Shown here one piece after another: positions 2,002 to 54,640 of a DNA stretch of 64,000 bases. The translations under genes were made by a program, and so were the position numbers. This stretch comes from Humulus lupulus (Eukaryota; Streptophyta; Magnoliopsida; Rosales; Cannabaceae), in assembly GCF_963169125.1 (NCBI RefSeq), contig NC_084795.1, positions 141,583,766 through 141,647,765 of the forward strand, in the 5' to 3' direction. Below the pieces are notes generated by a model. That model did not search any database. It saw only the letters and a list, made by a program, of their open reading frames with translations, and was not told the DNA's origin. The first letter of the stretch is position 1, and every line of letters begins with the position of its first letter.

Positions 2002-3065
2002 ATGCCTCCAAGGCAATCAATTCGACTAGCCGGGATCGAGTTTTGAGATGATGACCAGGGCTAGAACCCTCCGCCAATCCCTGAGAACTGGCAGTAGTTG
2101 CTTGCTGACATGCAAGCTAGACTTCACAGTCAAGAGGAAGAGATTCATCTTTTGAGGCAGCAGGCTCCACCAAGGAACGTTGCACCTAACTTGCCACCTG
2201 TTGTGGCACCAGTAGTACAGCCGCCTGAGATTGGGAACAGGTGTGAGCTGCTGTATGAAAGGTTTAGGAAGCAACATCCTCCAATCTTTGAGGGAGGATT
2301 GGATTCACTTAAGGCAGAAAAGTGGATGACCCTGATCTCCTCTATCCTGGACTTCATGAGGGTGGTAGATAATGATATGGTGGTTTGTGCCACTTACATG
2401 TTTCGAGATGATACCGGTATTTGGTGGGAGGTGGCATCCCCAACTCGAGATGTTTCTACCATGAGTTCGGACGAGTTTAGAGATATGTTTGACCAGAAAT
2501 ATTACAACATTGTTGTCATGGTGGCAACGGTGAATGAGTTCACCAGTTTGGTACAGGGCAGCATGACAGTTACTGAGTATGCCCTGAAATTTGACAGATT
2601 AGCGAAGTTTGCACATGATCTAGTGTTTACCAATGTAACCAGGAAATACAGGTTTGTTCGGGGGCTGACTGCTATGATAGCCCAAGATTTGCGGATCACA
2701 TCAATACCTGGGAAGACTACTTATGCCTAGGTGGTTGAGAAGGCCCTCATAACTGTGGAGGGAGAGAGCAAGATATGGAGGGAGATCACTGAAAGATGGG
2801 ATGTTCGTAGGGCAGTGCCTCCACTTACAGGATCTTGTAGGGGGAACGCCCCAATGATCATAAGAGGAAGACCCCTGACACCTCGACCACTGCAGGTCCT
2901 GATAGGAGGGACTGAGGTGTCCAGGGTGGCCGCCACAGTGGCAGTGAGACATGGAGAAGCTACCCAGAATGTGTTAGATGCAGGAAGCGCCATCTGGGAG
3001 AATGCCGGTCGAGAGCCTGTTACTTGTGTGGGGTGATTGGGCATCTCAAGAAATACTATTCGACT
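2002..3065 (+). pseudogene. gag of element A (broken)
   Basis: This encodes the nucleocapsid polyprotein that would package element RNA. An ATG at 2002 opens the frame, which hits three stops before 2098, continues open from 2098 to 2727 (stop TAG at 2728-2730), and resumes in the same frame to 3036. The gag core motif PPIFEGGL is followed by the helical part containing KYRFVRGL. The zinc knuckle lies in another frame at 3018-3059 (CYLCGVIGHLKKYY); its last cysteine is changed to tyrosine (TAT at 3057-3059). At least one frameshift and several nonsense codons make it inactive. Confidence 0.85.
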
Positions 3066-3600
3066 TTAAAGAAAGAAGAACTAGAGAAGGCAGACAGCTT
3101 GACTTCAGCTTGAGTGTTCACCTTGACTCAGGCAGAGGCTAAGGCTAGTCCCTCGGTTGTGACAGGTCAGCTTTCTAGTGCTGACACTTCATATACCTTA
3201 TTGATTGACTCTGGTGCTACAAATTCATTTGTTTGTAGTAAAGTGATTGATAGATTGTGCAGGCCTAGTGAGTATTGTATTGTGAGGTTTGGGACTATAC
3301 TGCCTACATGGGAACTATTAGTTCTTAAGAGATGGATTAGAACACTACCAGTGCTGGTCGACAACAATGAATTATCAATAGAATTGATTGAGTTGGGTAT
3401 GGATGACTACGACATGATTTTGGGGATGGATTGATTAGTAAGAAATGGGGCAACTATAGATTGCAGGAAAAAGATGGTGACTTTTGAGCCTGAGGGTGAG
3501 GACCCTTTCATTTTTCTTGGTACTATGCATGGACCTTGCATTCCCATGGTATCAGCGTTGAAGGCCAGAGACCTATTATGAGGAGGTTGTATAGGTTTTC
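3066..3600 (+). pseudogene. Aspartic protease region of element A
   Basis: The open stretch 3114-3434 carries LLIDSGATNSF, the catalytic Asp-Ser-Gly-Ala signature of retroviral-type aspartic proteases, near residue 30, and ends with the flap-side motif MILGMD. It is in the same frame as the gag zinc knuckle but separated from it by a stop at about 3112. A stop right after ILGMD (3432-3434) and further stops to 3600 break the link to reverse transcriptase. The enzyme would cut the Gag-Pol polyprotein. Confidence 0.8.
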
Positions 3601-5985: not shown

Positions 5986-6509
5986 AAGACCAATGAATCT
6001 ATTGAGAAGATCTGAGCTCGAATGCTCACTTTCTAGAGCAGACAAAAAAGGTACGCTGACCCTAAGCGTAGGGACATGGAGTTCCAAGTAGGGGACCACG
6101 TATTTCTATGAGTTTCACCATTTCGAGGGGTAAGGAGATTTGGGAAAAAGGGAAACTTGAGTCCTAGATTCGTAGGACCTTTTGAGATCCTGGAGAGGAT
6201 TGGGCAGGTTGCCTACATATTGGCTCTTCCCCCATCATTATAAGGAGTTCATGATGTATTTCACATCTCAATTCTTCGAAAGTATGTGTCTACTACGACC
6301 CATTTATTGCGATAGGAGGATCTAGTGCTACAAACAGACTTATCATATGAGGAGCGACTAGTTCATGTCCTAGACCAAAAAAGAACAAGGTTCTAAGGAA
6401 CAAGACGATTCTTGTAGTCAAAGTCTTATGGAGGAATAGCAAGGTCAAGGAAGCAACCTGTGAGCTAGAGTTCGTTATGCAATATCAACATCCCAAGTTA
6501 TTCAGGTAA
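5986..6509 (+). pseudogene. Integrase C-terminus and chromodomain-like tail of element A
   Basis: In scattered frames one can read DVFHISILRKYV and finally VVKVLWRNSKVKEATCELE followed by YQHPKLFR and a TAA at 6507-6509. This aromatic, WR..-rich end corresponds to the degenerate chromodomain tail of Tekay/Del integrases, thought to help target chromatin. Several stops and frame changes are present. Confidence 0.7.
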
Positions 6510-6532
6510 ATTTCGAGGATGAAATTTTTAGT

Positions 6533-6545
6533 AGGAAGGGATTGT
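6533..6545 (+). other. Polypurine tract of element A
   Basis: AGGAAGGGATTGT directly precedes the 3' LTR and follows the conserved context AAATTTCGAGGATGAAATTT, which is almost the same in element B before 26092. It would prime plus-strand synthesis. Confidence 0.75.
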
Positions 6546-8847
6546 TGTAACGTCCAAAAAAATTTCTATTAAGGCTTAGTGCCTTGATTAGTGTGTCGGG
6601 AGGGCCTAATTGGATATATGTGTGAAATTAATTGATTAAATGTGTAACTACGTGGCATACATGATTTATATGATAATATGAATAGATATGCATGTTTATG
6701 AGTATTAAATATGCATGTGGGCCTGTTCTTGTTAAATAGGCATATTTGTGATTCTGGCCCATTGAGGGCATAAATGTGATTATATGTATGTAAATGATTT
6801 AGACCACGTTATTATGTGGATATATTTGTAGTATTCGGCTCAAGGCGAACCTGGTGAGAGGATTAGTGGAATAGTCACAACGGGGTCTAATACCCGGCTA
6901 AGGGTGTGTCTAGGGGTATTTTGGGGTATCGGGTAACGGGTAATTATTTGGTGATTAATTGGGCATGTTGGGATTAATTGAGAACTTATAGGACTACTTG
7001 AGGATTAGCTAGAAATGCTACATAATGTTGGGTTTGCCCTTAAGGGCAATAAACGGCTGAGGAAACACTAGGGGTATTTTGGTCTTTGTACTAGGGGATA
7101 TACTTCGAAGACTTCAGGAATTAGCTAGAAGTAAGATATCCATCTCTCAGCTTCCCTTCTCCCACGTTTCTCTCTCCTTCTTTCTCTCCATTGGGTGCAC
7201 TTGGAAACCTTGCTGAAAACCTTAGGAAATTCGTTCAGAATTAAGGAAGCTTGGAGCTTGAAGTCTTGGGATTTAGCTCAAGGTTCGATTCTCAGTTGAG
7301 GAAAGGATTTCATTCTAAGTTTCGGTTGAGCTATCTCTGTAAATTTCCATGGTTAGTATAGGTTATCTTAAGTTTTTAAAGTTTTAAAGGGCTTGCTGAA
7401 TTCTTAGTTCCAAGGGGTATTTGGGTTAGATTTATAGGTAATTGTATTGCTTTGAGTATACTATTTAGGTAGAGGCTCAATTCTGAATTTGGTGCACGTT
7501 ATGTTGGATTTTGATGAATTAGGCTGAGGAAAAAATTAGTGAAAATATGCAAGTTTTTTGGCTTTTTGGGCTCGAGTCGCGACCCTATTCTTCAAACATC
7601 GCGACTCGTGTGTACGAAGAGGCTAGGAGCCACTGAATTTTTCCTAGGCACCATGGCGCAGGTTTAGGCGCACTGCGGCCTGCGTCTCTTAGAAGAGTGC
7701 CTCATGGGTCTCTGACTTGTAGTGTGTCGTGACCCTAGGAGTAGGTCGCGACTCTAATTTGGAGAAATAGCCAACTCAAGTTTATGGGCTCGAGAGCTCA
7801 AACCTACATCCTCAGAAAGGATTCTACTACCCGATTGAGTAGAATTCGAGGTCCCGGATGCTAGTACGTTATTCTATCTCTTTAAATTGGTTTAGGTTTT
7901 AATAGTTATCCATTATCGCTTTGTGACTAGGGTTACCGTTAAGGCTCGACATTGAGGATCGTGCTCGGGACTGCTCTACGCCTTCAGCTTGGACTCGAGG
8001 TAAGAAAATTTCACTCGGGTTGTGAATAGGGCTAAGACCCCCCGTGTAAATGAATATATGTGAGATTGTGAATATATATTTGTCTGAGGATATCTGGATA
8101 TGCATGTTTATTCGTGATGCTTTCGATTGCGTGTTTCACAATCTATCTATTTGTTATATTTGATCTAAAAGTCTGACCTAAAGGAGACGAGGCTAATGTT
8201 AAGCGTGTAGAATGCAGCTCGGCCAAAGCAAGCCGAGGACAACTAAATAACTAGTGGGCTCGGCCTAAGGGTGGCGACACTTAACTAACTATACTGAATG
8301 ATGAGATTGAATTACATGTTGGATTAAACTATTTATTATTGCCTAGCTTGTTGCTTATATTATGCTATTATCGACTTGATGGGTCTTAATTTACAGTATG
8401 TATAATGTTGTTCATTTATGAATGTGAATTAAGTTTTCTTGTTGAGCCTTCACTCACGGGTGCTTTGTGGTGCATGTAAGGGTAAGGGAAAGTTGGACCA
8501 GCCGTGAGTTGGAGAGTTTCGGGGGCGGTGTGTACATTAGCAGCTGCTCATCCACCACGACCGAGGGATTGACAGTGACTAGAGCCAAAATTGTGTTTTG
8601 CCACTTAGGCTGGCTTCAGCTGTAATAATTTTGAGGGTTGTAATTACCCTGTAAACACCATTTTTGGGATGCCATGTACTGACTCTTATTTTGAATGAAA
8701 GTCAACTATTTTATGATCAAATTCTTTTAACCCTAATTTGACAATTACCTTAATTAGTAACACGTTTATGTCCAAAAAACTTGATTAGCAAGTCCTGCAC
8801 TATTTAAAATATACAATGTAATGGTCTTGGCTATCGAGGGCATTACA
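6546..8847 (+). repeat. 3' LTR of element A
   Basis: It runs from TGTAACGTCC to GGGCATTACA (2302 bp) with proper TG...CA ends and starts right after the polypurine tract. It is the full-length reference for the 5' copy at 1-1624. It carries an extra block at about 7600-7740 with GC-rich sequence. Its middle (around 6736) is similar to the truncated LTR at 59490. Confidence 0.88.
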
Positions 8848-10263: not shown

Positions 10264-11380
10264 TGTAATGCCCCAAATTTCCTAATAAGGTTTAGGACCT
10301 TGATTAGAAGGCAGGGAGGACCATAATTGATTTATTATGTTATTGAATGATAATATGCATGTTTAGGTGTATTAAATATGCATGTGAACCCATTTCTGAT
10401 TAATTGGGTGATTTTTATATTTTGGCCATTTCAGGCATATTTGGCACATATGTCATATATGTGTGTAGTGCTTTATTATTATTTGGTTACGCTAGGGTTA
10501 CCCATCACGAGACGATCCTAGGAGGTAAGCTAGTGGGAAAGTCACAACTAGATTTATTCTTGACTCGGAGTAAGTCAAGGGGTATTTAGCATTACCAGGT
10601 TATTGGGTAATGGGAATCAATATTTGATGATAAATTGGGAGTTAGTAAGATCAGGGGGAAATTCTGGAGGTTTTGATTATTTTGCCTCGAGGGACGTTTT
10701 CGGGACCCCGAGCATTAGGATTTGTTTGAGGCTACTTAAGCTTGAAGTAACCTATTAAGAAATAAAAAGAACATTCAGTAAGTTCTCTCTCCCTTCAAGT
10801 TCCATTTTCGTCATCCGATCACATTTTCGAAGGAAACTAGAGTTCTAGGACTCGGATTCAAGCGAAGATCAAGGCATAGTGATCCTAGGAAAGATTAGAC
10901 GCTTATTACCCGGAGGATATAGTTGGGAAACAACTCAATCAGAGGTAATTCAAGTTTTAAGTTCTAAGATTTTAAAGATTTTAAGCTTGAATTGGACTTT
11001 GTATTTTAGTGAGTTTTTGAGTGATTTGAGGCTTGGGTTATGTTGGTTTTGGATCATGGGGATGTTTGCGAACTTTATTTTTGAGTTTAGAGATGTTTTG
11101 ATAGGATTTTGGAAGGTTTTAAAAGGTTAAAAATGGGGAAAATGGCTAGTCCGAGGTTGGGCCGCGACCTTGTTCTTGGGCGCCGCGGCCTAGGCTGGAA
11201 GAAGCAGGTGGAGAGTTTTCAAAGGGCTTGGGGCCACGGCGCTTGGTTAGGGGACCGCGGTGCTTGGCACTGTTTATGGCTAAAGTGATTTTTTGTTTAG
11301 GGGATCTCAAACCTTAGATATCTCGGAGGCTAGGTTTTGGTTCCAGGATTGGTTTTAGAACTTGAACACATTGGATCACC
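10264..11380 (+). repeat. 5' LTR of element B, left part
   Basis: It aligns with 26092 to about 27232 of the 3' LTR and is cut after GGATCACC by the CACTA element. It contains a GC-rich patch (about 11150-11275) also found at about 26960-27080. Short open frames here are chance openings. Confidence 0.88.
11378..11380 (+). other. Left 3-bp target duplication of CACTA element
   Basis: ACC lies immediately left of CACTACAAG and is repeated at 20929-20931 right of GTGTAGTG. The uninterrupted 3' LTR has a single ACC in GGATCACCATTTGT (27223-27236). Three-base duplications are the hallmark of CACTA transposition. Confidence 0.9.
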
Positions 11381-11700
11381 CACTACAAGAAAAAATGCTT
11401 TTAATAACACCAAAAATGTGTTATCAAGACATACGATAACACTTTCTGATGTGTTAAGACCGACTATGTTATCGTAGGTCAGGGTACTTTACATAACACT
11501 TTATCAGTGTTATACAGATGTGTTATTGTACTATCAACGATAACACAATTTCTGTGTTATTTATAGTCGATTATTGAACACTTTTTTTGTGTTATACTAC
11601 ACTTTAGTATAACACTTATTTTGTGTTATACTACACTTTAGTATAACACATTTTTTGTGTTATACTACACTTTAGTATAACACATGTGTTATATTAGCTT
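11381..11700. repeat. CACTA left terminal and subterminal repeats
   Basis: After the CACTA end come many TAACAC / GTGTTA hexamers in both orientations (first at about 11404), the usual binding-site array for CACTA accessory proteins. The right end has only a few (GTGTTATGG at 20899-20907). Confidence 0.8.
11589..11683. repeat. Three tandem palindromes in CACTA subterminal region
   Basis: The 27-base unit GTGTTATACTACACTTTAGT + ATAACAC is present at 11589-11615, 11623-11649 and 11657-11683 with a 34-base period. Each unit is an inverted repeat (GTGTTATACTA / TAGTATAACAC) around a short loop, so each could form a hairpin or bind a dimeric protein. Confidence 0.9.
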
Positions 11701-11779
11701 AGAGAAACATAATCTTTTTTTACTTACACAAAACTAGGAAAACAAATATGAAAGTTGAAGCCAAATAAGGTAACATAAA

Positions 11780-12001
11780 TAGATTTTTATTAATTACTCA
11801 AATATAATTACAATATTTAGTCTACTAGTCTAGGCTTAAGAAATCATATTACAACATAATTTATGCCCAATTCAGATTCCTTTATCACTAAATACAAAAC
11901 AGGAAATGTATACCAAAATTAGTGAAATACATTCTTCCATTCTAAAGGCCTCAACTACAAATGTTGTCAAGAATCGCTCCAAAGAAATCATCTAAATATA
12001 C
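11780..12001 (-). pseudogene. Terminal exon with stop and 3' UTR-like tail, unassigned
   Basis: On the minus strand a GTGCAG acceptor precedes 12001. The exon reads VYLDDFFGAILDNICS and stops with TGA at 11951-11953. Downstream is AT-rich sequence with an AATAAAA-like signal near 11790. This looks like the last exon and 3' UTR of a captured gene, or the CACTA transcript end. I do not recognise the peptide. Confidence 0.4.
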
Positions 12002-12828
12002 CTGCACATTGTAAAAAAAAAAAGTCCTTTTATTATTAAGAACAAAAGTTCTTGCCACCACAACAACAAACTTACAGTCTTTTCTTAAATGATACATTGA
12101 AAATACTTATCTGTTTTAGTTCAATAAAATAAGAGAGCTATCAAGAAAGAGCTAGGGAATTTTCAGATGAACAATAAAATAAGAGAGAATCAGTAGAGAA
12201 TTTCTCTATGGTTATGAGTCTGATGACTCAAAACAGTCAGTTGGGACTGTAGATACTATACTGCTATATATAAACTATCATATTTAATGATATTCTTTTA
12301 TTCTTATATATAAATATATATAAATAACTATCATAGCTGGTTTCTCTGCCAAAGCTAGCTAGCTCACGTTTAGAAATCATTTACATAAGAAACTATACAT
12401 GACCCTGAAATTTTCATAGTATTAAAACAAAAGTGACCTTCCAATTTGAAATTCAAGTTATAAATGCTAACCCAAATGCTGAAAAACAAAATCATATTTA
12501 CAAATAAAATGAAGAGAAATAGATCAATGGTGCTGAGAGAAACATGTATTTTGGTAATTTAAGAGATGAACTCTATCTCTAAACAGAGATATACACCACA
12601 AAATGTAAAAACCTATCATAACTTAAAAAAACTTTCAAAAAGATCACTCATGCAACTAAGAAGTTTATGCTCAGTCTAATATAAATTAAAATACTAAATA
12701 AGAGGAACACCTCATGTAGTTAATGACCATTAAATAAATAAGCTCCAAAGCTTTTTCAGAAGTTCAATAATGGTATCATGAATAAATATGCTTTGATTTA
12801 CAACAAAAATGAATTTAATACCTATAAC
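12002..12828. other. AT-rich CACTA interior, no gene seen
   Basis: This is AT-rich sequence with TATATA runs near 12260-12330. No coding-like stretch was found on either strand. Confidence 0.5.
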
Positions 12829-13189
12829 CGCTCTGTGAATATTGGGCTAACAATTCAGAGAAAGCAGGATGACTTTTAAGCTGGAAATGGAATTAAAAAA
12901 AACAGAGATATTATGCTACCTAAAATTTATGAAAAACTGAAAGAAAGTGAACAAGTTCCAGTTAAGATTTTAGTTAAAATGAGCCCTCAAAGAGCTCAAT
13001 ACTTCCCAATTAATTTAGGACAACATGCCTGAACTATTTATCTAAACTAACTATACCAATCTTAAAAGGGAAGCAACAAACTTTTTTAGACATGGTGCTC
13101 ATCTTCTGAAGTATGGATACAGATAAACTTCCAGTATCACCAGCAGCTAATTTCTCAATCAAATGCACCATGACTAAACTAGCAGAAAC
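12829..13189 (-). pseudogene. Two exon-like segments of an unrecognised gene in the CACTA
   Basis: Minus-strand 13189-13082 is 36 codons open between a TATGCAG acceptor and a GTTTGT donor (contains VMVHLIEKLAAGDTG). Minus-strand 12880-12829 is open between TTTCCAG and GTTATA (LKSHPAFSELLAQYSQ). The composition and splice signals look exonic, but I cannot assign a family. They may belong with the terminal exon at 12001. Confidence 0.35.
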
Positions 13190-13839
13190 CTGCATATATT
13201 TACAATATAAATTAACTTAAAATGCCAATAATCAGTAATCACATCAAAGAAGCCATCTAAAACTATATGATCTGCAAACATTTTGTTAGGCATCAGATAT
13301 TGAATAGAGCTATATAGGATTAGTGTGTTGACTTGTAAATTTACTCATGTTCTATTGGTTGGCTAGTAAGTGTTATTGTTAGTCTATAAATAGTATAAGA
13401 GAATACTTGGAAGGGATATATAGAAGAATTTGGTTACTGTTTAAAGTTTAGAATTTCTACTCTAGGAGTTTTTTCTAGGTTTTCTCAAATTAACATAGAC
13501 TTTGTGCAAGATTTGGTTCTTTTCAGTACAATTCATTTATCCTAACATGAAGTTTCTGACCTGTGCTAGAAGTTCTAAATTGTCCCAGTTCCAACATAGC
13601 TTCGGTTCCTGGAAGGAATTAGAAAATGCCTATCGTTAATTTAACTAACAGAAACATATACTCTAGAATTATAACGACATTTTTTTTAGGGTATTATAAC
13701 GACATTTTGTCCTTAGTAAACTACATAGAACTTAATGGTTGACCAGACTTATAAAGATGAGTAGTGGCATAATGGAATTTAACATAACAAAGCCAATGAA
13801 AATGATGTTTATTTCCATTAAGTAGGATATAGCACATAC
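13190..13839. other. Intron-like spacer with a possible small LTR-like block
   Basis: There is no coding-like sequence. About 13326-13547 begins TGTTGACTTG, contains CTATAAATAG and ends CCTAACA, which resembles a small solo LTR, but flanking bases (TAGTG and TGAAG) do not match, so I leave it unassigned. Confidence 0.3.
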
Positions 13840-14034
13840 CAGTTATAGAAAGAAGAATCCCACCATGAGAAATCCAACCATCTTTACCAGTCTCCTTAAA
13901 GAACTTGACAATATAATGGGGTGAAAAAGCATAAACAACTTTTGGGTTCCAATGTATTGTGTTGTAGAGACCAATAGAAAAAAAGGAAAATAACCAGATC
14001 AATACGATAGGTGCAAATAAAAAGGCAACACCAT
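13840..14034 (-). pseudogene. KUP/HAK/KT potassium transporter exon fragment
   Basis: One exon of 195 bases lies between a TCTATAG acceptor (just right of 14034) and a GTATGTGC donor (13839). It encodes [20 protein letters not shown], then [16 protein letters not shown], and ends GGILLSITG, the membrane-spanning segment and loop of the plant KUP/HAK/KT K+ transporter family that precedes the conserved EAMFADLGHF block. No neighbouring KUP exon is seen. The exon is open and spliceable but is only about 65 of the roughly 780 residues usual for the family. The assignment comes from recognising the motif string. Confidence 0.8.
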
Positions 14035-14239
14035 CTATAGAAAATAAATCCAAAACAGAAACTTTCAATCAACAATTTACAACTGAGCCTACAGCACTTG
14101 AATAAATAAATAAGTGCTACACAGGTCCAACTATAGTCTATGATATAATCTAGTTCTCTAAAAATCATTGGATATAAATGCAACTAAGTACACAATAAAT
14201 AGATATTGTAACAAACAAACAAAAGTTCATGTTAAATAC

Positions 14240-14468
14240 CTCCATACTCCTTGTTTTGTGGATCGATGTAAGAATCAGGGAGTACAAAGATAACTCCAGG
14301 TAGACCTGTTCAAGGAAAAAAGTTAAGAGCATGACTATTGAACTTCCATAAACTTTGTCACATTAAACTACCATTAAACTTCTCTGACTCTTCTTCGGTC
14401 ATTACAGCTTGAAAGCCTGTGTAAGTTGTTGTGCTACAAGAATAAATTTTCTTTTCTCCTCTTCCATA
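14240..14468 (-). pseudogene. MORF/DAG organelle RNA-editing factor fragment (two exons)
   Basis: Exon 1 (14468-14372) and exon 2 (14305-14240) are joined by a 66-base gap with a GT donor (GTAGTT) and an AG acceptor (GAACAG); the phase is kept across the junction. They encode KKIYSCSTTTYTGFQAVM, then GLPGVIFVLPDSYIDPQNKE. These match the MORF/RIP (DAG-like) domain that binds PPR proteins during C-to-U editing in plastids and mitochondria. The preceding and following exons are absent. Both pieces are open, so this is truncation rather than point decay. Confidence 0.85.
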
Positions 14469-15411
14469 CTGTATCCAAGAAAGCAATTATTACAAGGCTA
14501 AATTATTTTGAATACAAATCTAATCTAGAGTACAAAACTAATAACATGTTACATGTCTTGAGACATAAAAGAATTTGCATAGGCCCTTCAAACTAATGTA
14601 AATGAAAGCAAAATATTATTATTTTTATATAAAAAAATGAAGAAACAGAAGACAAACCTAGTATCATGATCAATTTATTATCCAGCTATTCAAATTTTCT
14701 CTCCATCAACAGGGCAACATAAAATCTTTTTCCAAAAATCAGTGCCAGGCCACTGAAAACCAAAAATTTATATGAATCATTCTTCTAACTAGCTCTTTTA
14801 GTACAAAACAAAAATATGTTTAAAATGAAAAGATTCATGACATATAGTGATGTAGTAAAGAAACAAAGATGAAAACATTTTAAAAAAATGTAATCCCATT
14901 CAGGCCACCCCAACCCCAGGAAGAAAAAGTTATAAAACACATACATCCAAATTATTCAAAACATAAATATATAAATGAATAAGAAAATCCCATTTGATAA
15001 TCATTTGGCCTGGTACATAATGAACAGAAAGAAACCAATAAAAGGCATCACCCAAAGAAATAGAATTCATGAAAATTTCTACTCATTTCTAATCTTATAA
15101 AATACAATAATAGAAGAAAAAAGAAAAAAAAAGGGGAACATATACCATATAAATATATATGTATATAGACAGAGAAAGGGTGAGATTAGACCTGATCATT
15201 AGCTCAATGAAGTGAATAAATATTAGTAAGAAAAGCATTTGCCCAATTTAAAAAGGCTGAGAAAAAATAAACATAAATAACTGATTGATTTCTCCAACTT
15301 CATGCGCTAAAATTTCTCCCAAAAATAAACATCAGGAAATAAAAATACATTAAACATTGAAGTATTCAGTATTGAAAGCTTTGCAATTATTATTCAATAA
15401 ACAATACTAAC
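14469..15411. other. CACTA interior between MORF and USP fragments
   Basis: AT-rich sequence. A weak coding-like stretch on the minus strand near 14755-14690 (contains WPGTDFWKKILCC) has no supporting splice sites, and I do not call it. Confidence 0.4.
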
Positions 15412-17690
<2,279 letters not shown>

Positions 17691-18834
17691 TCTTCAAAAA
17701 TTATTTGCAAAATAACTTTTGTGGTGGCTAAGCAAGCATATTCTATTACACTGACCAGCTATTATGGTTGCTCAATGTAAAACCAACGAGTTCATTTTGC
17801 TAATTTCACTATTTTACCTTGTTAACTTGGCCCAAAGAAAAAAAAAACTCAATTTTTAATATAGTCAACAATTAGAATTTCATAGAGTTATTCTAGATGA
17901 TACACCCACATGTACGAAAACCAGGATAACCCAATAAATAAGAACAGAACATATATTGCCTTCACTTCACATAAAGCAAAATTTTATGAAATTCTTTACT
18001 TGCACCAAGCAAAGAAAGATACCAGGCTTGTTAGTTAAACTAGGCTCTGAGAGCCACAAAATATTCGAAAACCTAGCCAAACATCCAATAGCCCACAAAT
18101 AATACATGTCCATCTTGAAACTATTGCCCAAAAAGAAAGAAATATAACAACGAGTAACTAGAAGACTGGGCTTGCAAAACCTAGTGCACTCATCAGATGT
18201 TTTGAACTTAATTAAAAAAAAATGAATTATATAAGTTTAGCATCTAATGGGGCAATATAAGCATACTTTGTTTCCATATGAACAATTAATTAAAGAAAAC
18301 AATCATAAGTACATCCAGAAATTCGAAACCAGGCATTAAGAACGCAAAGTGGAAAAAAGAAATCTACCTATTTGAAATAACGTAGTACAAATTGCCTTCC
18401 TTCAAATTCTTCTCAGATTGGTTGGCGTGGTTAAATTATCATAATAGAAATCAGTCAGTAGCCACTGCTTTTTCTCTTAGCATGCTTATCTAAACACCGA
18501 AAACAACTATCCATGCAATTTTTCTTTTTCTTTTTTGAAACTAGACACCCCCACCTATTGGGGTCTAAGAAACAATAAATAACTCGCTATGTAAGTGCCT
18601 AAGAGGGACTCGAAGCTCAAATCTTATTGGAGCAAACCTCATGCTATTGTCAAAGAACTTAGTTTCTAAGCCTTGATTATCTGCTACTTTGGGAGGAATT
18701 CCAAATTTGTATGAAGAAAATGGTAGCAATTTATAGAGTGAAACTAACAAAAGATTGAGGAAATTAGGGCACAAATCCTTAAAAGGCTGTTGGCCTGTTG
18801 CTTAGTGATGCTTTGTAGAGAACAGAGTACGCAC
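17691..18834. other. CACTA interior between Tab2-like and USP fragments
   Basis: No coding block was found. 18540-18660 has a moderately GC-richer patch (CTATTGGGGTCTAAGAAAC) of unknown origin. Confidence 0.4.
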
Positions 18835-20330
18835 CTGCTAGCGGTTTAGCTCGTGAAGAAGAAACAGCCAACCCTTGGATCAATGTGCCGTCATCAATTT
18901 CAATCCCCAACAAAACCAAATCTAAACTTGAACCGAATACAAGTTTTGATTCTAAGGATGAAATCTCCTCCCGAACAGCTGAAAACATGGGGAAAAACTT
19001 AGTATTACTTACGGACTATAGTCAAAGAAAGAAAGCTCAATACAAGAAAAGTATAATGAGAATGCTTGTAAAACATGTCAACATAGAATCAGTAACGAGA
19101 AAAAGTAGTACTTTTAGCTATTTCTAACCTGACAAAGGTAATTGGACAAAAGCCCATCTATCCCCAAAAAGATTATCCAGAAGTTCCATTGGGAAAGGGT
19201 TATCTAACGCGAGAAGTGGCTTAGCTCCTTTCTGGTAACGAGGATGACGAGTATATATAGTCTCAAATCTTTCATCCAACCATAACAGCAGTGATACACA
19301 CTGAAACAAACAAACCATAAGAATGCTAGACAGCATAGTAGAATAAGAAAGCTTCCCAATTTCACTATGTATTTAGCTAATCTCACTCCAAGTTAGCTAA
19401 GTTGAAATTAACAGCTTTATATATATGATTAGTTGTGTCTGTATACCTGTTGGCTGTTTGAACTGAAACTGGAGTTATGCACTAACTTGATAGGTTGTGA
19501 CAGTCATTTTAAAGATGGAAACTCCCAAAACATCTTTTGGGTTTATGAAGGCTTGGAAGATATAAAAAGAGAGCTTTGCTACTTAGTTCTACACACCAAA
19601 ACTCATTCTCTTCATGCTCTTTGTGTTCATTTTATAACTTAATTTTGCCACTTTACATGCTATCTTTTTCTTGAAGTTGCAATATTACCATATATTTCTA
19701 ACAACGTGATAGGAGAACGTAAAGTTAAACAAAAAGAACTATGCATACCCTTTTACTAGGAACAGGTTTTATACTAAGCTCATTACAAGCCTTTGTTATA
19801 AATGTCTACATTTGTGACCTGAAATCCAATAAAAAAAAACCCATGAAACTCATAACTCTAAACTGAAAAACTCAAAAACTCATATGATTGTTGAGACCAA
19901 TAAATATACCTGAAGTAGCGTATTTTATCAGGTAAAGGAATACCCAAATCTTCACTGATTCCCTCAATGGCGTCCTTCAAAGTAATACTATTGATCACAT
20001 TATTGGGAAAGTACTTAGTATATTGCAATGACAAAGACTCATCACAAACCACAAGCTCCCAAAGCTTCTTCCCTCTGATATCAAGAATGGGTCTTGAGCA
20101 AAAATCAAGCTCCCCTTCAGTAAGGCCGTTGGGATTCGTTTCAGGGTCGAGATAGCAGAGCTCGACAGTTGGTCATCTTCTTCTTCTTCTTCCTCCTCAA
20201 TTTCCACTTCTTCTTGCATCGAAACCGAGCCTGAAACGGAACTCGACCCCCCGAAACGACATAGTTTTGGCCAGCTTCTGGGAGGGTTCGAGGAGAAACT
20301 GAATGGGATTTTAATGGGTTTTGTGAAGTT
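18835..20330 (-). pseudogene. Tab2-like plastid translation factor gene fragment, four exons
   Basis: Minus-strand exons: about 20330-19910, 19818-19749, 19300-19129 and 18978-18835, each bounded by GT/AG with phases that fit. Motifs are [77 protein letters not shown] and [19 protein letters not shown]. This is the Tab2/ATAB2 family, nuclear genes needed for photosystem protein synthesis in plastids. An acidic glutamate run precedes the core, and a one-base loss right after it (near 20172) throws the frame. The second exon has a TAG (19807-19809). The C-terminal exons after SSSRAKPLA are missing. Confidence 0.88.
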
Positions 20331-20928
20331 GGAAATGGGTTTATGAGATTGAGTGATACAAAAATCTAAAATTTCTGGTAAGGAACGGTAAACTATTCAC
20401 TCATGCATCATTCAAGACAAAAAATACAAATATACCCCTCAACGGCGTAAGCCTTATACCCAGCCACCATTTTCTTCCTCTACAACTCAGGATCGTTCAA
20501 GCTCCAGCTTGGTGCACACTCGGGGCTCTACAGCGGAACGGGTGTAGAATCGCGCCTGGTGGTGACTCGTGAATGGAAGTCGCATTGGGTCAAAGGCACG
20601 CAGAAATGGGCTCGCACCTGGGGTCACTTGGTTTGGGGGTTGGGTTCATGGGTGCCTGAGATTTAGAGCTTGGCTCGGAAAAAAATGGTTGTGAGGATGG
20701 TGGTTAGGTGGTCGGAGCTGAAGCATGGATTGACTTCGGAGACGGAAGAAAACGGGGGAGTTTTTCTTAAAAAAGAAGAAGGAATTAGTAAAAAATATAA
20801 GGCAGGCGGGTTCCCAAAATAAATTACCGCCCTTTTTTTCCCCACATATATATATATATAAATATACCATAACTCTTTTTAAATAGTATTATAATGATGT
20901 GTTATGGTAATGGGTGTTTGGTGTAGTG
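20331..20928. other. CACTA right end
   Basis: There is a GC-richer stretch (about 20440-20650) and then AT-rich sequence with a TA run (20847-20863) leading to the GTGTAGTG terminus. The stretch lies upstream of the Tab2-like fragment and could hold captured promoter or 5' UTR sequence, but I see no clear signal. Confidence 0.4.
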
Positions 20929-22285
20929 ACCATTTGTGGTTGTGACTAGGTTATCACTAGAGGCTTGGAATCAGGATCGTGCTTGTGGCTCATTTATTGG
21001 TAACTTGTGCTTGGACTAGAGGTAAGAAAAATGCAACCCATATGTGACATGCATGGTTATTCTTGATGCATGTTGGATGTTTAAATGTGAACATTGATAG
21101 CATATCAAATGCTTAGCAACCTTGCTCACTTGTGTATGATTATTATTGAGGCATGCTGGGTGATTAAATGTGATGCATATTATGCACGAGAAACATGTGT
21201 TTAGGGCATGCCATGAATGTTGAATATGAGACTGATTAGAGCTTGAGTCTCTGTGTTTGTGCATGATCATAATTGTGCTAGAAACTGTTAAGTAAGCATG
21301 TTGAATGCCCTACGTTTGGATATTTGACATATGATATATGCCTGGTAGCATTGCTTACTTGTGCGTGGCACTAACTCATTAGTCATAATTGGCAATGGTG
21401 TCAGTATCAACTGTAAATTTATGACTCATTAGTCAAGTTCGGCAGTGGTACTGTGCCCTAGTCACATGGTATTGACTCATAAGTCAAGAACCGTCTTAGC
21501 GTGTTTAACGCAAGCAGATAAAAGATTAGATATAATCGACATCTGCATTGGATGACTTAAATGAGAATTAATGCCGGACCGACCTTAAGTTCGATGAAAA
21601 TTAAAAGCGTTTTTCTAGTCTAAGGGCTAGTTATTAAGAGCCAGAGTCAGAAAGGCTAAGGTGACCTACATGTCACATGGCTGGGAGGGTATGGGACCTC
21701 CAGAGTGTGACTCATTAGTGACCTTGCAGAGTGTGACTCATTAGTCACTAATACAGAGTGCGATTCATTAGTCACCTATACAAGGTATGACTCATTACTC
21801 ATCCACACAGAGACAGACTCATTAGTCATCCACATAGAGATAGACTCATTAGTCTTCTATACAGAGTGTGACTCATTAGTCACCTATACAGAGATAGACT
21901 CATTAGTCTTCTATACAAGGTGTGATTCATTAGTCACCTATACAGCGTATGACTCATTAGTCATCTATACAGAGTGTGACTCATTAGTCGCCTATGCAGG
22001 GTGTGACTCATGAGTCACCTAAGAGGAACTAGGGTTAAACCCTGTTTTGCCGCTTAGATCGGCTGGTTGTAAATATTTTCTTGTAATTGACCGTTAAATT
22101 ATATTTTTTGGATTCCAATGTATATAGTAAACATTTTAGTGAAACATTATATCTTAACCAAAATTTTTAATCCCTAAACCACTAATCATAATTAGTTACA
22201 CGATTATGGCGAAATGACTCGGTTAGCGAGTTTAGCACTGTTTAAAATGCGCACCGTAACGGTCCCTGGAGTTTAGGGCGTTACA
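20929..22285 (+). repeat. 5' LTR of element B, right part
   Basis: It resumes with the duplicated ACC and aligns with 27230-28954 of the 3' LTR, ending GGGCGTTACA. It lacks about 270 bases found in the 3' copy at 28440-28690. It carries the 27-bp array listed separately. Confidence 0.88.
21704..22018 (+). repeat. 27-bp tandem array with palindromic TGACTCATTAGTCA core, 5' LTR copy
   Basis: About 12 units of 27 bases, each built on TGACTCATTAGTCA (or a one- or two-base variant) plus a CCTATACAGAG-like spacer. The core is an inverted repeat and contains TGACTCA, the GCN4/AP-1-type bZIP site. Isolated copies also occur upstream (about 21369, 21421, 21473). Confidence 0.92.
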
Positions 22286-26091: not shown

Positions 26092-28954
26092 TGCAATGCC
26101 CAAATTTCCTAATAAGGTTTAGGACCTTGATTAGGAGGTCAGTAGGGCCATAATTGATTTATTATGTTATTAAATTATAATATGCATGTTTAGGTGTATT
26201 AAATATGCATGTGAACCCATTTCTGATTAACTGGGTAATTTTCATATTTTGGCCATTTCGGGCATATTTGGCACATATGTGATATATGTGTGTGGTGCTT
26301 TATTATTATTTGGTTATGCTAGGGTTATCTAGCACGAGATGATCCTAGGAGGTAAGCTAGTGGGAAAGTCACAATGGGATTTATTCTTGACTCGGAGTAA
26401 GTTAAGGGGTATTTAGCATTACCAGGTTATTGGGTAATGGGAATCGATATTTGATGATAAATTGGGAGTTAGTATGATCAGGGGAAATTCTGGAGGTTTT
26501 GATTATTTTTCCCCGGGGGACGTTTTCGGGACCCCGAGCGTTAGGATTTGTTTGAGGCTACTTAAGCTTGAAGTGACCTATTAAGAAATAAAAACAAGGT
26601 TCAATAAGTTCTCTCTCCCTTACATTTCCATTTTCGTCACCTGATAGCATTTTCGAAGGAAACTAGAGTTCTAGGACTCGGATTCAAGTGAAGATCGAGG
26701 CATAGCGATCCTAGGAAAGATTAGAAGCTTATTAGTCAGAGGATTTAGTTGGGAAACAACTCAATCGGAGGTAATTCAAGTTTTAAGTTTTTAATCTTGT
26801 ATTGGACTTTGTGTTTTGGTGAGTCTTTAGTTGATTTGAGACTTGGGTTATGTTGGTTTTGGATCATGGGGATGTTTAGGAACTTTGATTTTAGAGTTTG
26901 GAGATTTTTGGATAGGTTTTCGGAAGGTTTCAAAAGGTTACAAACGGGGAAAAATGGCTGGTCTGGGGATGGGTCGCGCCCTGTTCTTGGGCGTCGCAGC
27001 CCAGGCTTGAAGAAGCAGGTGGAGAGTTTTGAAAGGGCTGGGGGCCACGGCACTTGGATAGGGGGCCGCGATGCTTGGTGCTGTTTATGGCTAAAGTGAT
27101 GTTTTGTTCAGGGGAACTCAAACTTTAGTCCTCGAGATCGTCCCTACTACCCGAATTAGTGGAATTCGATGTCGTGGAGGCTAGGTTTTGGTTTCGGGAA
27201 TTGTTTTAGAACTTGAACTCATTGGATCACCATTTGTAATTGTGAGTAGGTTATCACTAGAGGCTTGGAATCAGGATCGTGCTTATGGGTCATTTATTGG
27301 TAACCTTTGCTTGGACCAGAGGTAAGAAAACTGCGCCCCATATGTGACATGCATTGTTATTCTTGATGCATGTTGGATGTTTAAATGTGAACATTGATAG
27401 CATATCAAATGCTTAGCAATCTTGCTCACTTGTGTATGATTATTATTGAGGCATGTTGGGTGATTAAATGTGATGCATATGATGCACGAGAAACATGTGT
27501 TTAGGGAATGCCATGAATGTTGAATATGAGACTGATCAGAGCTTGAGTCTCTATGTTTGTGCATGATCATAATTGTGCTAGAAACTATTAAGTATGCATG
27601 TTGAATGCCCTATGTTTGGATATTTGACATATGATATATACCTGGTCGCATTGCTTACTTGTGCGTGGCACTGACTCATTAGTCATAATTGGCAATGGTG
27701 TCAGTATCAACTGTAAAGTTGTGACTCATTAGTCAAGTTCAGCAGTGGTATTGAGCACTGGTCACATGGTATTGACTCATAAGTCAAGAACGGTCTTAGC
27801 GTGTTTAACGCAAGAAGAAAAAATATTAGATCTAATTGACATCTGCATTGAATGACTCAAATGAGCATTAATTCCGCACCGACCTCAAGTTCGATGAAAA
27901 ATTAAAAGCGCTTGTCTAGTCTAAGGCCTAGTTATGTAGAGCCAGAGCCAGAAAGGCTAAGGTGACCTACATGTCACATGGCTAGGAGGGTATGGGACCT
28001 CCAGAGTGTGACTCATTAGTCACCTATGCAGAGTGTGACTCATTAGTCACTAATACAGAGTGTGATTCATTAGTCACCTATACAGGGTATGACTCATTAG
28101 TCATCCACACAGAGATAGACTCATTAGTCATCTATTCAGAGCGTGATTCATTAGTCACCTATACATGGTATGACTCATTAGTCATCCACACAGAGATAGA
28201 CTCATTAGTCACCTATACAGAGATAGACTCATTAGTCTTCTATACAGTTTGTGACTCATTAGTCACCTATACAGAGATAGACTCATTAGTCTTCTATACA
28301 GGGTGTGATTCATTAGTCACCTATACAGGATATGACTCATTAGTCATCTATATAGAGTGTGACTCATTAGTCACCTATGCAGGGTGTGACTCGTTAGTCA
28401 CCTACTCTGAGATTGACTAATTAGTCATCTATTCTGATGCAGGACCCCATAATCATTTATTTGTACCTGCGTGCATGCGTGGTGAAGGCTATTATTGCTA
28501 GGCATGCACATTATGATTTGATGACATGTTAGTACTGTTCATGAGAATATTGAGTTTTCTTGCTGGGCTTCGGCTCACGGGTGCTATGTGGTGCAGGTAA
28601 AGGAAAAAGAAAGCTGGACCATCCTCGAGTTGAAGAGCTTAGGTGATGACATGTACATATGCGGCTGCTCGACCGCCACGGCTGAGGGTTGAAAGAGGAA
28701 CTAGGTTAAACCCTATTTTTCCGTTAGATCGACTAGTTGTAAATGTTTTCTTGTAATAGACCTTTAAATTATATTTTTGGGATCCCAATGTATACAGTAA
28801 ACGTTTTAGTGAAACGTCATATCTTAACCAAAATTTTAATCCCTAAACCGCTAATCATACTTAGTTACACGATTATGGCCAAATGACTCGGTTAGAGAGT
28901 TTAGCACTGTTTAAAATGCGCACTGTAACGGTCCCTGGAGTTTAGGGTGTTACA
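26092..28954 (+). repeat. 3' LTR of element B
   Basis: 2863 bp, from TGCAATGCCC to GGGTGTTACA. It is uninterrupted and so shows the empty CACTA site at 27223-27236. Near 28560-28690 it shares the block GGCTGCTCGACCGCC with the LTR of element A (around 1325-1345), linking the two families. Confidence 0.9.
27997..28432 (+). repeat. 27-bp tandem array with palindromic TGACTCATTAGTCA core, 3' LTR copy
   Basis: About 15 units plus a partial one, against about 12 in the 5' LTR. The 27-base period is divisible by three, so the array stays open and would read as a nine-residue repeat (CDSLVTYTE-like) in one frame. I regard that translation as a by-product of the period. Confidence 0.92.
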
Positions 28955-31965: not shown

Positions 31966-32290
31966 CTTAAGGACATATGAGGTCGAGTCCTTTGTTAGTG
32001 TGGGCCAAATGTAACCCTATGTTTGAACCTTCAAGGCCAAGCTTTGCCCCCAAGCATGGTCTCTGAAAAATCCTTCGTGGATCTCTTTGAGGATAGCCTG
32101 CACTTCCTCAGGTAGAACACATCTTAAAGTGGCATGGAATGACCTGGCTTATACATAATCCCCTTGACTATAACATACCTCGGGACCTCTTATAGCAATT
32201 TTCGTGCATCCTTGTGGTCTTTGGGCAGTTTTCTGGACGTGAGATATTCTACTATTTGGGTCATCTATGTCGTTCCTTAACGAATAATTT
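31966..32290 (-). pseudogene. Integrase zinc-binding N-terminus of element C
   Basis: On the minus strand one reads LPEEVQAILKEIHEGFF, RDHAWGQSLALK and GYIWPTLTKDS with frame changes. This is the H-H half of the integrase HHCC domain of Tat-type gypsy elements, separated from its C-C half by the solo LTR. It is bounded on the right by the Cassandra insertion. Confidence 0.75.
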
Positions 32291-32665
32291 TGTAACGTCC
32301 CATGTAACTATGGCTGCTTCTTGGAATGACGACTAGCTCTATAAAACAAACACGATTCTTTCCAGTGTGCTTTGTCCTCACTCACACACTTCCTGGGAAA
32401 ACATCAAAGGAGGTCACCCATCATGAGACTACTCTAGGTCAAGCACGCTTAACTTTGGAGTTCTCAAGTGATGGGCTACCGAAAAGAAGATGCATTTTGT
32501 TGGCATAGGTAGTAACCATCAATCCATTTAAAACATCTTCAACTGTGTAGTCCCATACATGCACAGTCTTAGAATCATCACACTTGACCTTCCCCAGGCG
32601 ATGTGGGATTGCACAACTTTTACATAGATTTTCCCCCAGTGGATCACGGGATTCTGATTGTCACA
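32291..32665 (-). repeat. Cassandra LTR 1 with 5S rRNA-like segment
   Basis: 375 bp. The segment 32392-32480 matches, on the minus strand, the plant 5S rRNA gene with its internal Pol III control region: GGAGTTCTC/CAAAGTTAAGC-type sequence, AAGCGTGCTTGACC and GATGGGTGACCTCC. Confidence 0.88.
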
Positions 32666-32736
32666 ATCACCCACCCTTAGGGGTCTGAAGTCCCCATCGG
32701 CCACACTTCCGGCTGGGTCAAGGCTCTGATACCATT
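32666..32736 (-). other. Cassandra internal domain 1 with PBS
   Basis: 71 bp. On the minus strand TGGTATCAGAGCC (plus 32721-32733) is a perfect tRNA-Met-type primer site next to LTR 2, and purine-rich CCTAAGGGTGGGTG lies near the other LTR as the polypurine tract. Confidence 0.85.
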
Positions 32737-33098
32737 TGTAATGCCCCACATCACTATGGCTGCTTCCTGGAATGACAACTGGCCCTACAAACCAACACGA
32801 GTCTTTCCAGCGTGCTTTGCCCTTACTCGCACGCTTCTTGGGAAAACTTCCTAGAAGGTTATCCATCATGAGACTACTCCAGGTTAAGCATGCTTAACTT
32901 TGGAGTTCTCAAGTGATGGGCTACCGAAAAGAAGAAGCATCTTGTGTGGCATAGGTGCATTTAAACTATCTTCAACTGTGTAGTCCCATACCTACACAAT
33001 CTTAGAATCATCACACTTGACCTTCCCCAAGTGATGTGGGATTGCATAGCTTTTACCCGATCTTTGCCCCTGCGGATCACGGGATTCTGACTCTCACA
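32737..33098 (-). repeat. Cassandra LTR 2 with 5S rRNA-like segment
   Basis: 362 bp. It is shorter than the other two because about 13 bases (the GGTAGTAACCATCAATCC region) are missing around 32958. The 5S-like segment is at about 32838-32922. Confidence 0.88.
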
Positions 33099-33169
33099 AT
33101 CACCCTCCCTTAGGGGTCCGACGTCCCCGTCGGCCACACTTTTGGCTGGGTCAAGGCTCTAATACCATT
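33099..33169 (-). other. Cassandra internal domain 2 with PBS
   Basis: 71 bp, like internal domain 1. The PBS here is TGGTATTAGAGCC (one change). Confidence 0.85.
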
Positions 33170-33546
33170 TGTATCGCACCACGTCATTATGGTTGCTTCA
33201 TGGAAATGATGACTGGCCCTACAAACAAACACAATTCATTCTAGTGTGCTTTTTCCTCACTCGCACGCTTCCTGGGAAAACTTCAAAGGAGGTCACCCAT
33301 CATGAGACTACTCCAGGTCAAGCACACTTATCTTTGGAGTTTTCTCAAGTGATGGGCTATCGAAAAGAAGATGCATTTTGTTGGCATAGGTAGTAGCCAT
33401 CAATCCTTTTAAAACATCTTCAACTGTGTAGTCCCTTACCTACACAGTCTTACAATCATCACAATTAATCTTCCCCAGGCGATGTGGGATTGGATAGCTT
33501 TTACTAGGTATTTCCCCATGCGGATCACGGGATTCTGACTATCACA
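33170..33546 (-). repeat. Cassandra LTR 3 with 5S rRNA-like segment
   Basis: 377 bp. It starts TGTATCGCACC on the + strand, so the end has drifted from TGTAAYGYCCC. The 5S-like segment is at 33270-33360. Confidence 0.87.
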
Positions 33547-33551
33547 AATTC

Positions 33552-53589: not shown

Positions 53590-54640
53590 GCGCCCACAAA
53601 AGATCCAAGACGTGCCTAGCCGCGAGGCCCTGCCTCGCTCAGCCATGTCTGGGCGTGAGGCCCCGCTTCACTCTCAGCACACCCACGCGAAGCCACCCTT
53701 GGCCACGCGAGGTCCTTCTCGGCGTCGCACCTCGGCCACCCTAGGCCATGCAAGACCCGTCTCGGCGTCGCGCCTCACCCACGGGAGGCCCTTCTCATCA
53801 TCGCACCTCACCCACGTGAGGCCACCCTCGGCTATGCACGACCCATCTTGGCGTTGTGCCTCGCCCATGTGAGGCCACCCTCGACCACGCAAGGCCCTTC
53901 TCGTCGTCGCACCTCGGCCACGCGGGGCCATCCTCGACCATGCAAGACCCATCTCTGCGTCACGCCTTGCCCACGCGAGGCCCTTCTTGGCGTCGCACCT
54001 CGCCCACGCGAGGCCACCCTCGGCTATGCACGACCCCTCTCAGCATCGCGCCTCAGCCACGCGAGGCCACCCTCGGCCACGCGAGGCCCTTCTCGGTTTA
54101 GCACCTCGGCCACCCGGGGCCACCCTCGGCCACACGAGGCCCTTCTCGGCGTTGCACCTCAGCCACGCGGGGCCACCCTCGGAAATGCAAGACCCATCTC
54201 GGCGTCGCGCCTCGCCCACGCGAGGCCCTTCTCGGCGTCGTACCTCACCCACGCAAGGCCACCCTCGGCTATGCACGACCCGTCTCGGCGTCGTGCCTAG
54301 CCCACGCGAGGCCACCCTCGGCCACGCGAGGCCCTTCTCGGCGTCACACCTCAGCCACGCAAGGCCACCCTCGGCCATGCAAGGCCCATCTCAGTGTCGC
54401 GCCTCGGCCACACAAGGCCACCCTCGGCCACGCGAGGCCCTTCTCGGCGTCGCACCTTGGCCACGCAAGGCCACCCTCAGCCATGCAAGGCCCGTCTCGT
54501 GCTTAGCCTCGGCCACACGAGGCCCAGCGTCCCAGCGCCTCGCAAGCAAGGCCCGTGCCCAGGCGCGGACGCGTCGTCACCCCACCTTGCACTCATCCAC
54601 GACCGCGCGAGGCCCTGAAACCTTTAGATGTAAGGCCACG
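53590..54640 (+). repeat. GC-rich tandem array of about 1 kb
   Basis: Repeated units combine AGGCCCTTCTCGGCGTCGCA, CCTCGGCCACGCGAGGCCAC and CCTCGGCCATGCAAGACCC in varying order; blocks of about 33 and 53 bases alternate into an irregular higher-order unit. It is open in several frames on both strands (up to 220 codons), as expected from the repeat period and composition. It is rich in CG dinucleotides, unlike its surroundings. It probably lies in or near the LTR of element G. Confidence 0.85.

Follow-up and report, generated by a model that had tools for sequence, protein, structure and literature searches.

The window analysed here is a stretch of 64 kb from contig C3 of hop (Humulus lupulus). 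It contains, at 11381-20928, a CACTA element of 9.5 kb that is very probably a non-autonomous, gene-fragment-carrying transposon of the Pack-CACTA type, built stepwise as a mosaic. On its minus strand the element carries exon pieces of at least six unrelated sources, namely Tab2, a UBP10-like ubiquitin protease (UBP), a MORF1-like gene, a KUP/HAK gene, a DUF3511 gene and a DUF3414 nucleoporin, and a 58-bp XRN remnant on the same strand is a seventh contribution. An earlier note, made from the letters of the window alone, had counted at least four sources; the four that it named (Tab2, UBP, MORF and KUP) are all present, and its count was too low.

The left end of the element, CACTACAAGAAAA (11381-11393, plus strand), has a single exact occurrence in the whole window. 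The right end, ...GGTGTAGTG, finishes at 20928 and reads CACTACACC... on the minus strand (20916-20928). CACTACA is common to both ends, and 20 of their first 30 bases are identical. Terminal inverted ends of this kind are a trait of the CACTA (En/Spm) superfamily, as are a 3-bp target site duplication, here ACC at 11378-11380 and 20929-20931, and a subterminal repeat region. The last consists of direct and inverted repeats with a 34-bp spacing at 11493-11696 and is strong at the left end, which was the end looked at separately. In a comparison of the window with itself, 10264-11380 aligns to 26092-27231 and 20929-22021 aligns to 27229-28323. The two alignments overlap by exactly 3 bp, which are the single ACC (27229-27231) of an empty target site in a homologous repeat copy. 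Because this empty site exists in the same window, CACTA and ACC borders arising by chance are excluded, and the borders predicted in the earlier note are confirmed. The insertion sits in one of two copies of a long repeat (10264-11380 plus 20929-22285, against 26092-28954; 86-92% alike), which are possibly the long terminal repeats of one retrotransposon.

All recognizable cargo reads on the minus strand. A Pfam scan of all six frames of the element found there Tab2-like_N (4.8e-19) and the Tab2-like C domain, DUSP (4.9e-12) and UCH (1.6e-9) of the UBP10-like protease, MORF_dom (5.1e-8), K_trans (2.5e-15) and, near 20.47 kb, DUF3511 (7.1e-6). The plus strand gave no Pfam family at E <= 5. The proposal that unrelated host genes had been captured, all on one strand, was thus upheld. 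The earlier note had pointed out that Tab2 and MORF act in organelle gene expression; no evidence was found that these roles are significant here. All 24 exon borders examined, chosen by eye at exon ends (6 in Tab2 and 18 in the others), are GT or AG.

Read from right to left, the element begins with a module common to its relatives (20356-20928, minus strand; matches to 573 bp). This module holds a DUF3511-derived first exon at 20436-20470, with an ATG at 20470 and a GT at 20435. The Tab2 segment (18422-20352) comprises exons 1 to 4, at 19910-20352, 19749-19818, 19129-19300 and 18835-18978, and part of intron 4. The captured piece starts inside exon 1, which is therefore 5'-truncated, and Tab2's own ATG is absent from the element. 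The UBP10-like segment (15195-18426) has exons at 15412-15552, 15665-16057, 16457-16552, 16644-16703, 17469-17670 and 18367-18426, the last two cut. MORF exons follow at 14372-14471, which gave the MORF_dom match, and at 14240-14305. The XRN remnant (14025-14082), made up of the end of an intron with its AG acceptor plus some 10 bp of XRN exon, is fused to a KUP/HAK exon at 13840-14024 (K_trans profile 153-218), and 13561-13608 looks by eye like a damaged KUP exon with intact GT/AG borders. A nucleoporin exon of the DUF3414 type lies at 13082-13189 (AG before 13189, GT at 13081), with a further nucleoporin piece, its borders not fixed, at 12824-12883 (P0241 residues 312-331). The hop protein P0241, whose second half is nucleoporin (DUF3414)-like, is matched by these two exons (near 12.85 and 13.14 kb); the 33-residue exon alone found no match as a PDB query, and its identity was obtained through P0241. 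A candidate terminal exon, proposed in the earlier note and unconfirmed, is placed at 11951-12001 (minus strand, AG before 12001), within the left module common to relatives (11381-12604; matches to the first 1000 bp).

Host-gene pieces with parents elsewhere, a trait of Pack-CACTA elements, were found for Tab2 and UBP. The Tab2 parent lies on contig C4 (2787702-2789219, near 2.79 Mb), is 95% identical to the captured segment and can be read over residues 1-365 of a relative 375 residues long. The UBP parent lies on contig C7 near 244.05 Mb and is about 95-98% identical to the captured segment; its exons extend past the captured part on both sides. The CACTA end motif is absent from the parent loci as read (7.5 kb at the C7 UBP locus and 4.0 kb at the C4 Tab2 locus). 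Against the C7 parent, the UBP segment shows two internal deletions, of about 680 bp with a 7-bp overlap at 17309-17315 and of 575 bp with a 4-bp overlap at 17667-17670, through which one UBP exon is missing from the element. The Tab2 and UBP segments abut with a 5-bp overlap (18422-18426).

A native hop gene cluster, or one composite gene, lying by accident between CACTA-like motifs might also be expected to show exons in consistent order on one strand, bordered by GT and AG. Such a gene or cluster is almost certainly not what the window contains. The empty site rejects it, Tab2 and UBP have separate parents on C4 and C7 rather than one contiguous host locus, and the same segments lie between CACTA ends elsewhere. 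The earlier note had itself held that its proposal would fall if the exons were contiguous at one locus or if related copies lacked the borders; relatives have CACTA borders.

These relatives, the search for which the earlier note had recommended, were collected from the best 40 of 1996 candidates for the left 1 kb and the best 40 of 1563 for the right 573 bp. Among the 20 fetched, nine are complete, with both ends and their own perfect 3-bp duplications, which are all different; copies at different sites are the mobility trait of Pack-CACTA elements. The combination of UBP and Tab2 occurs in six copies (the window, L009, L018, L030, L031 and L032), with the UBP match beginning only at 16256 in the last two. 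The KUP-XRN junction of the window recurs as an exact 48-mer in L009 and L018, by which a recombination unique to the window was rejected. Both of these copies are without 12604-13987; on this comparison, the window keeps the fuller form and L009 and L018 share a deletion. The complete elements L012, L014 and L020 have KUP and no UBP or Tab2 match, XRN adjoins MORF in L035 and L036, and L011 ends near its KUP piece. Other cargo includes XRN (L021), AtuA (L017), a PTP-like phytase (L028), thiolase (L024) and, among pooled partial copies, a P4-type ATPase. Many copies share the MORF, KUP and nucleoporin modules, and several element classes contain pieces of UBP. L018 also has a 1.9-kb insertion (its positions 6049-7955) at window position 17902-17909, with an 8-bp overlap (duplication), which we take to be consistent with a nested hAT-type insertion.

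Three hop proteins named by NCBI cross capture borders in relatives, all in the sense of the minus strand of the window. Two of them, P0001 (94%) and P0002 (93%), are the best Tab2 matches, both from Humulus lupulus. P0001 ('protein TAB2 homolog, chloroplastic-like') is 100% identical to L030 over residues 1-104, 261-301 and 302-320, and passes from Tab2 exons into exons in UBP-derived DNA past the 18422-18426 junction. P0002 opens with MVVGYKAYAVEG, encoded in the DUF3511 piece, and goes on from a Tab2 acceptor; its residues 13-137 are 100% identical to L032, and it may derive from another assembly version than the one holding that copy. The third model, P0241 (named 'pleiotropic drug resistance protein 3-like'), has an ABC transporter portion (ABC_tran 4.6e-12) joined to nucleoporin exons. 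Its nucleoporin half was not recognized by Pfam; among solved structures, this half is matched by a nucleoporin (DUF3414) chain at 3.3e-48. The best C3 locus for P0241, L037, has the left end of the family (84-91% over 296 bp) and cargo in the same sense, and no right end of the family was seen there. Protein and locus agree in blocks of 62-100%, some of which run into introns, and at 98% for residues 328-488. Two hop UBP10-like models, P0129 and P0203, resemble the UBP cargo and are identical to no fetched copy.

The copy in the window is itself damaged. Its Tab2 part has one frameshift and one stop, the latter in exon 2, and along the exon plan of P0002 the frame runs from the DUF3511 ATG into Tab2 and through the frameshift to a stop after 105 residues. 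The UBP part has one in-frame stop and reads LGNTFFMN where the C7 parent keeps LGNTCFMN(S). The cysteine replaced by phenylalanine is presumably the catalytic residue of UBP. Among the Tab2 substitutions private to the window, none is synonymous, 11 are nonsynonymous (one of them a stop) and 8 are intronic. With a frameshift and a stop in Tab2, and a stop and the Cys-to-Phe change in UBP, this copy is called non-coding; judged by its sequence, it is a passenger that cannot encode a working Tab2 or UBP. The possibility of a chimeric transcript, raised in the earlier note, gains indirect support from the three predicted models that cross capture borders in relatives. An in-frame stop in captured Tab2 was found in three of the five copies scored (present in the window, L009 and L032; L030 and L031 are free of stops and gaps there; L018 was left out of the scoring). 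Private Tab2 changes number 2 synonymous, 2 nonsynonymous and 8 intronic in L030, and 2, 3 and 10 in L031. These are not significantly different from neutrality, and no significant sign of selection on Tab2 in the relatives was obtained.

The window element has no transposase of its own, another Pack-CACTA trait, as no transposase family was found in it by the six-frame Pfam scans. Genome-wide, Transposase_21 genes are numerous; among the best 150 of 8572 candidates, which were scored, dozens of open frames of 834-851 residues have identical scores, which suggests recent CACTA activity. A transposase supplied in trans would have moved the element. Segments of host genes would have been copied into family members as genomic DNA, introns included, probably during transposon gap repair with template switches at microhomologies of 4-7 bp, and family members would later have exchanged and lost segments. 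The captured exons, with their splice signals, lie in one orientation, from the right end with its DUF3511-derived ATG exon towards the left end. Because they keep these signals and share an orientation, a transcript could splice exons of different sources together.

Several points weigh against this stepwise Pack-CACTA history. No overlap is seen where the Tab2 segment, reaching 20352, meets the right module, which starts at 20356. The parent search that succeeded for Tab2 and UBP recognized only family copies for MORF (best 40 of 54 candidates scored) and KUP (best 40 of 90), and singled out no nucleoporin parent among the relatives listed (best 88 of 338). For MORF, KUP, nucleoporin, XRN and DUF3511, capture thus rests on their location between the CACTA ends. 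No autonomous partner was linked to the element: downstream of an intact Transposase_21 gene, the one examined in this way, 4.8 kb contained no matching end. P0001, P0002 and P0241 are predicted gene models, as their names imply NCBI prediction. Finally, L036 (C2:59455600-59461400), which matches the right end of the family, carries at about 2028-3230, next to XRN exons, an almost full-length copy of MORF that has no introns and one in-frame stop. This copy looks like a processed, RNA-derived sequence inside a DNA transposon, which gap repair at the DNA level alone would leave unexplained.

The shared orientation of the cargo was tallied by scanning both strands of the window, of the non-redundant cargo of L009, L012, L017, L021, L024 and L028, and of ten further copies pooled as 45 translated frames per strand. 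All copies were best left-end matches. Cargo of other elements was chosen without blastn similarity (E <= 1e-10, >= 60 bp) to cargo already counted, and segments resembling an earlier copy's cargo were scanned once only. Each gene was counted once, retrotransposon domains were excluded and the pooled ATPase domains were assumed to be one gene. The pooled scans do not assign matches to copies; in 7 of the 10 pooled copies (L011, L013, L015, L022, L023, L025 and L026) the right end is unlocated, and some of the DNA may lie outside an element. Stretches outside the scan were 619 bp of L028, 152 bp of L012, 233 bp of L022, 546 bp of L023, the 1.9-kb insertion of L018, the stretches beyond the right ends of L010, L016 and L027, and all cargo of L030-L032 and L035-L037.

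At E <= 1e-5, the minus sense of the window is shared by 10 of the 11 host sources counted (two-sided p=0.012), and by 5 of 6 with the window excluded (p=0.22). At E <= 0.01 the tally is 16 of 17 (p=0.00027), or 11 of 12 without the window (p=0.006). Matches left out of this looser tally as doubtful or transposon-borne were Peptidase_C48, TMF_DNA_bd and Potass_KdpF (minus) and retrotransposon domains (plus). Those left out above E 0.01 were XRN_M, Cpn60_TCP1, DUF7491, Ank_4, Thioredoxin_7 and weaker pieces of counted genes (minus) and GGDEF_GdpP, TRIP4, Orf78 and DUF6479 (plus). The exception to the strict tally is a CWZF domain (CWZF3-5-7 THD, 4.8e-12) on the opposite strand of L024 (C2:30099400-30109300); the usual strand of this copy carries pieces matching thiolase, dynamin and bHLH-MYC. 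The one-strand bias is suggestive and not settled.

One explanation of the bias is chance together with shared ancestry, the modules having entered jointly and not by independent captures. The recurrence of the MORF, KUP and nucleoporin modules and the spread of UBP pieces across element classes are consistent with this, and the five of five sources in the window alone give p=0.0625; the dissimilar cargo of other elements, also mostly on the same strand, argues the other way. We consider this explanation quite plausible, at somewhat under even chances. A directional exon trap is less likely; in it, captured exons would be retained mainly when they lie in the sense of one transcript of the element, since RNA begun at the right-end module would be spliced through them, and some relatives would express chimeric proteins used by the plant or by the element. 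It would account for the strict and loose tallies, for the three models crossing capture borders in one sense and for the uninterrupted Tab2 codons of L030 and L031. Against it stand the strict count outside the window, one of whose five agreeing sources, the P4-type ATPase, comes from pooled copies mostly without a located right end, the CWZF domain of L024, the private changes in L030 and L031, which are not significantly different from neutrality, and the stops in most scored copies. Slightly less likely again is the proposal that the hop CACTA family as a whole is a one-way exon trap, in which the right-end DUF3511-derived ATG module and the shared left module bracket host exons in the sense orientation. 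A literature search whose coverage left out most subscription papers turned up no description of CACTA families with a strand bias in their cargo, and no paper on gene capture by hop CACTA elements was recognized in it.

Outside the element, the window has further internal repeats at 32289-33547 (83-88% alike) and at 53680-54525 (72-79% alike), the latter near a GC-rich stretch at 54-58 kb.

Helitrons, which are rolling-circle elements, lack both terminal inverted repeats and target duplications; the hop element, which has terminal inverted ends and a target duplication, is unlike them in this respect. In its stepwise gain of several fragments it resembles the Helitrons of maize, which are described as acquiring several fragments in sequential steps (PMC3288121). 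Closer counterparts are found among CACTA elements. Tgm-Express1, in the soybean wp allele, is described as carrying, within 5.7 kb, pieces of exons and introns from five host genes unrelated to one another; it sits in intron 2 of a gene, and its chimeric, alternatively spliced transcripts were detected by reverse transcription polymerase chain reaction (PMC1947982). The hop element likewise has pieces of several unrelated host genes but, compared with that description, is 9.5 kb long, lies inside a repeat, has six sources and a remnant as well as many relatives, and is known from DNA alone. The 'unusually rich' cargo claimed in the earlier note is therefore so only in relative terms. In the Tpn1 family of Japanese morning glory, which is CACTA-type (En/Spm-related), non-autonomous members are reported to exchange their interior for host gene pieces while keeping their ends, one member makes chimeric transcripts, and TpnA1 is a putative autonomous member (PMC5105172). 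The hop element is similarly non-autonomous, with host gene pieces between kept ends, whereas no autonomous partner has been linked to it. Pack-CACTA and other Pack-TYPE elements of Arabidopsis, maize and rice are also described as non-autonomous, with compatible ends and capture from several loci, as in the hop element, and maize Pack-CACTA elements had the most distinct loci (PMC8903248). That work describes a tandem-insertion model of capture, a proposed mechanism also set out in a 2026 review (PMC13317346), whereas the hop junctions show short overlaps. For CACTA elements of wheat chromosome 3B, which belong to other families than the hop element, 140 capture events were reported, with captured segments common to two families and 17 captured genes perhaps formed via exon shuffling, some of them transcribed (PMC4290129). 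Multi-gene CACTA elements with chimeric splicing are thus already known, and the hop element is a rich further case.

With two parents, several relatives, an empty site and junctions all readable in one genome, the element shows an intermediate of exon shuffling at good resolution. Caution is due with hop proteins that bear the names of TAB2 and PDR3, some of which have the look of transposon cargo and not of ordinary paralogues. The family also offers a testable set for an orientation preference in the capture or retention of host exons by transposons. If the one-way trap were true, it would continually make spliced chimeric genes in hop, some of them annotated and some perhaps kept by selection.

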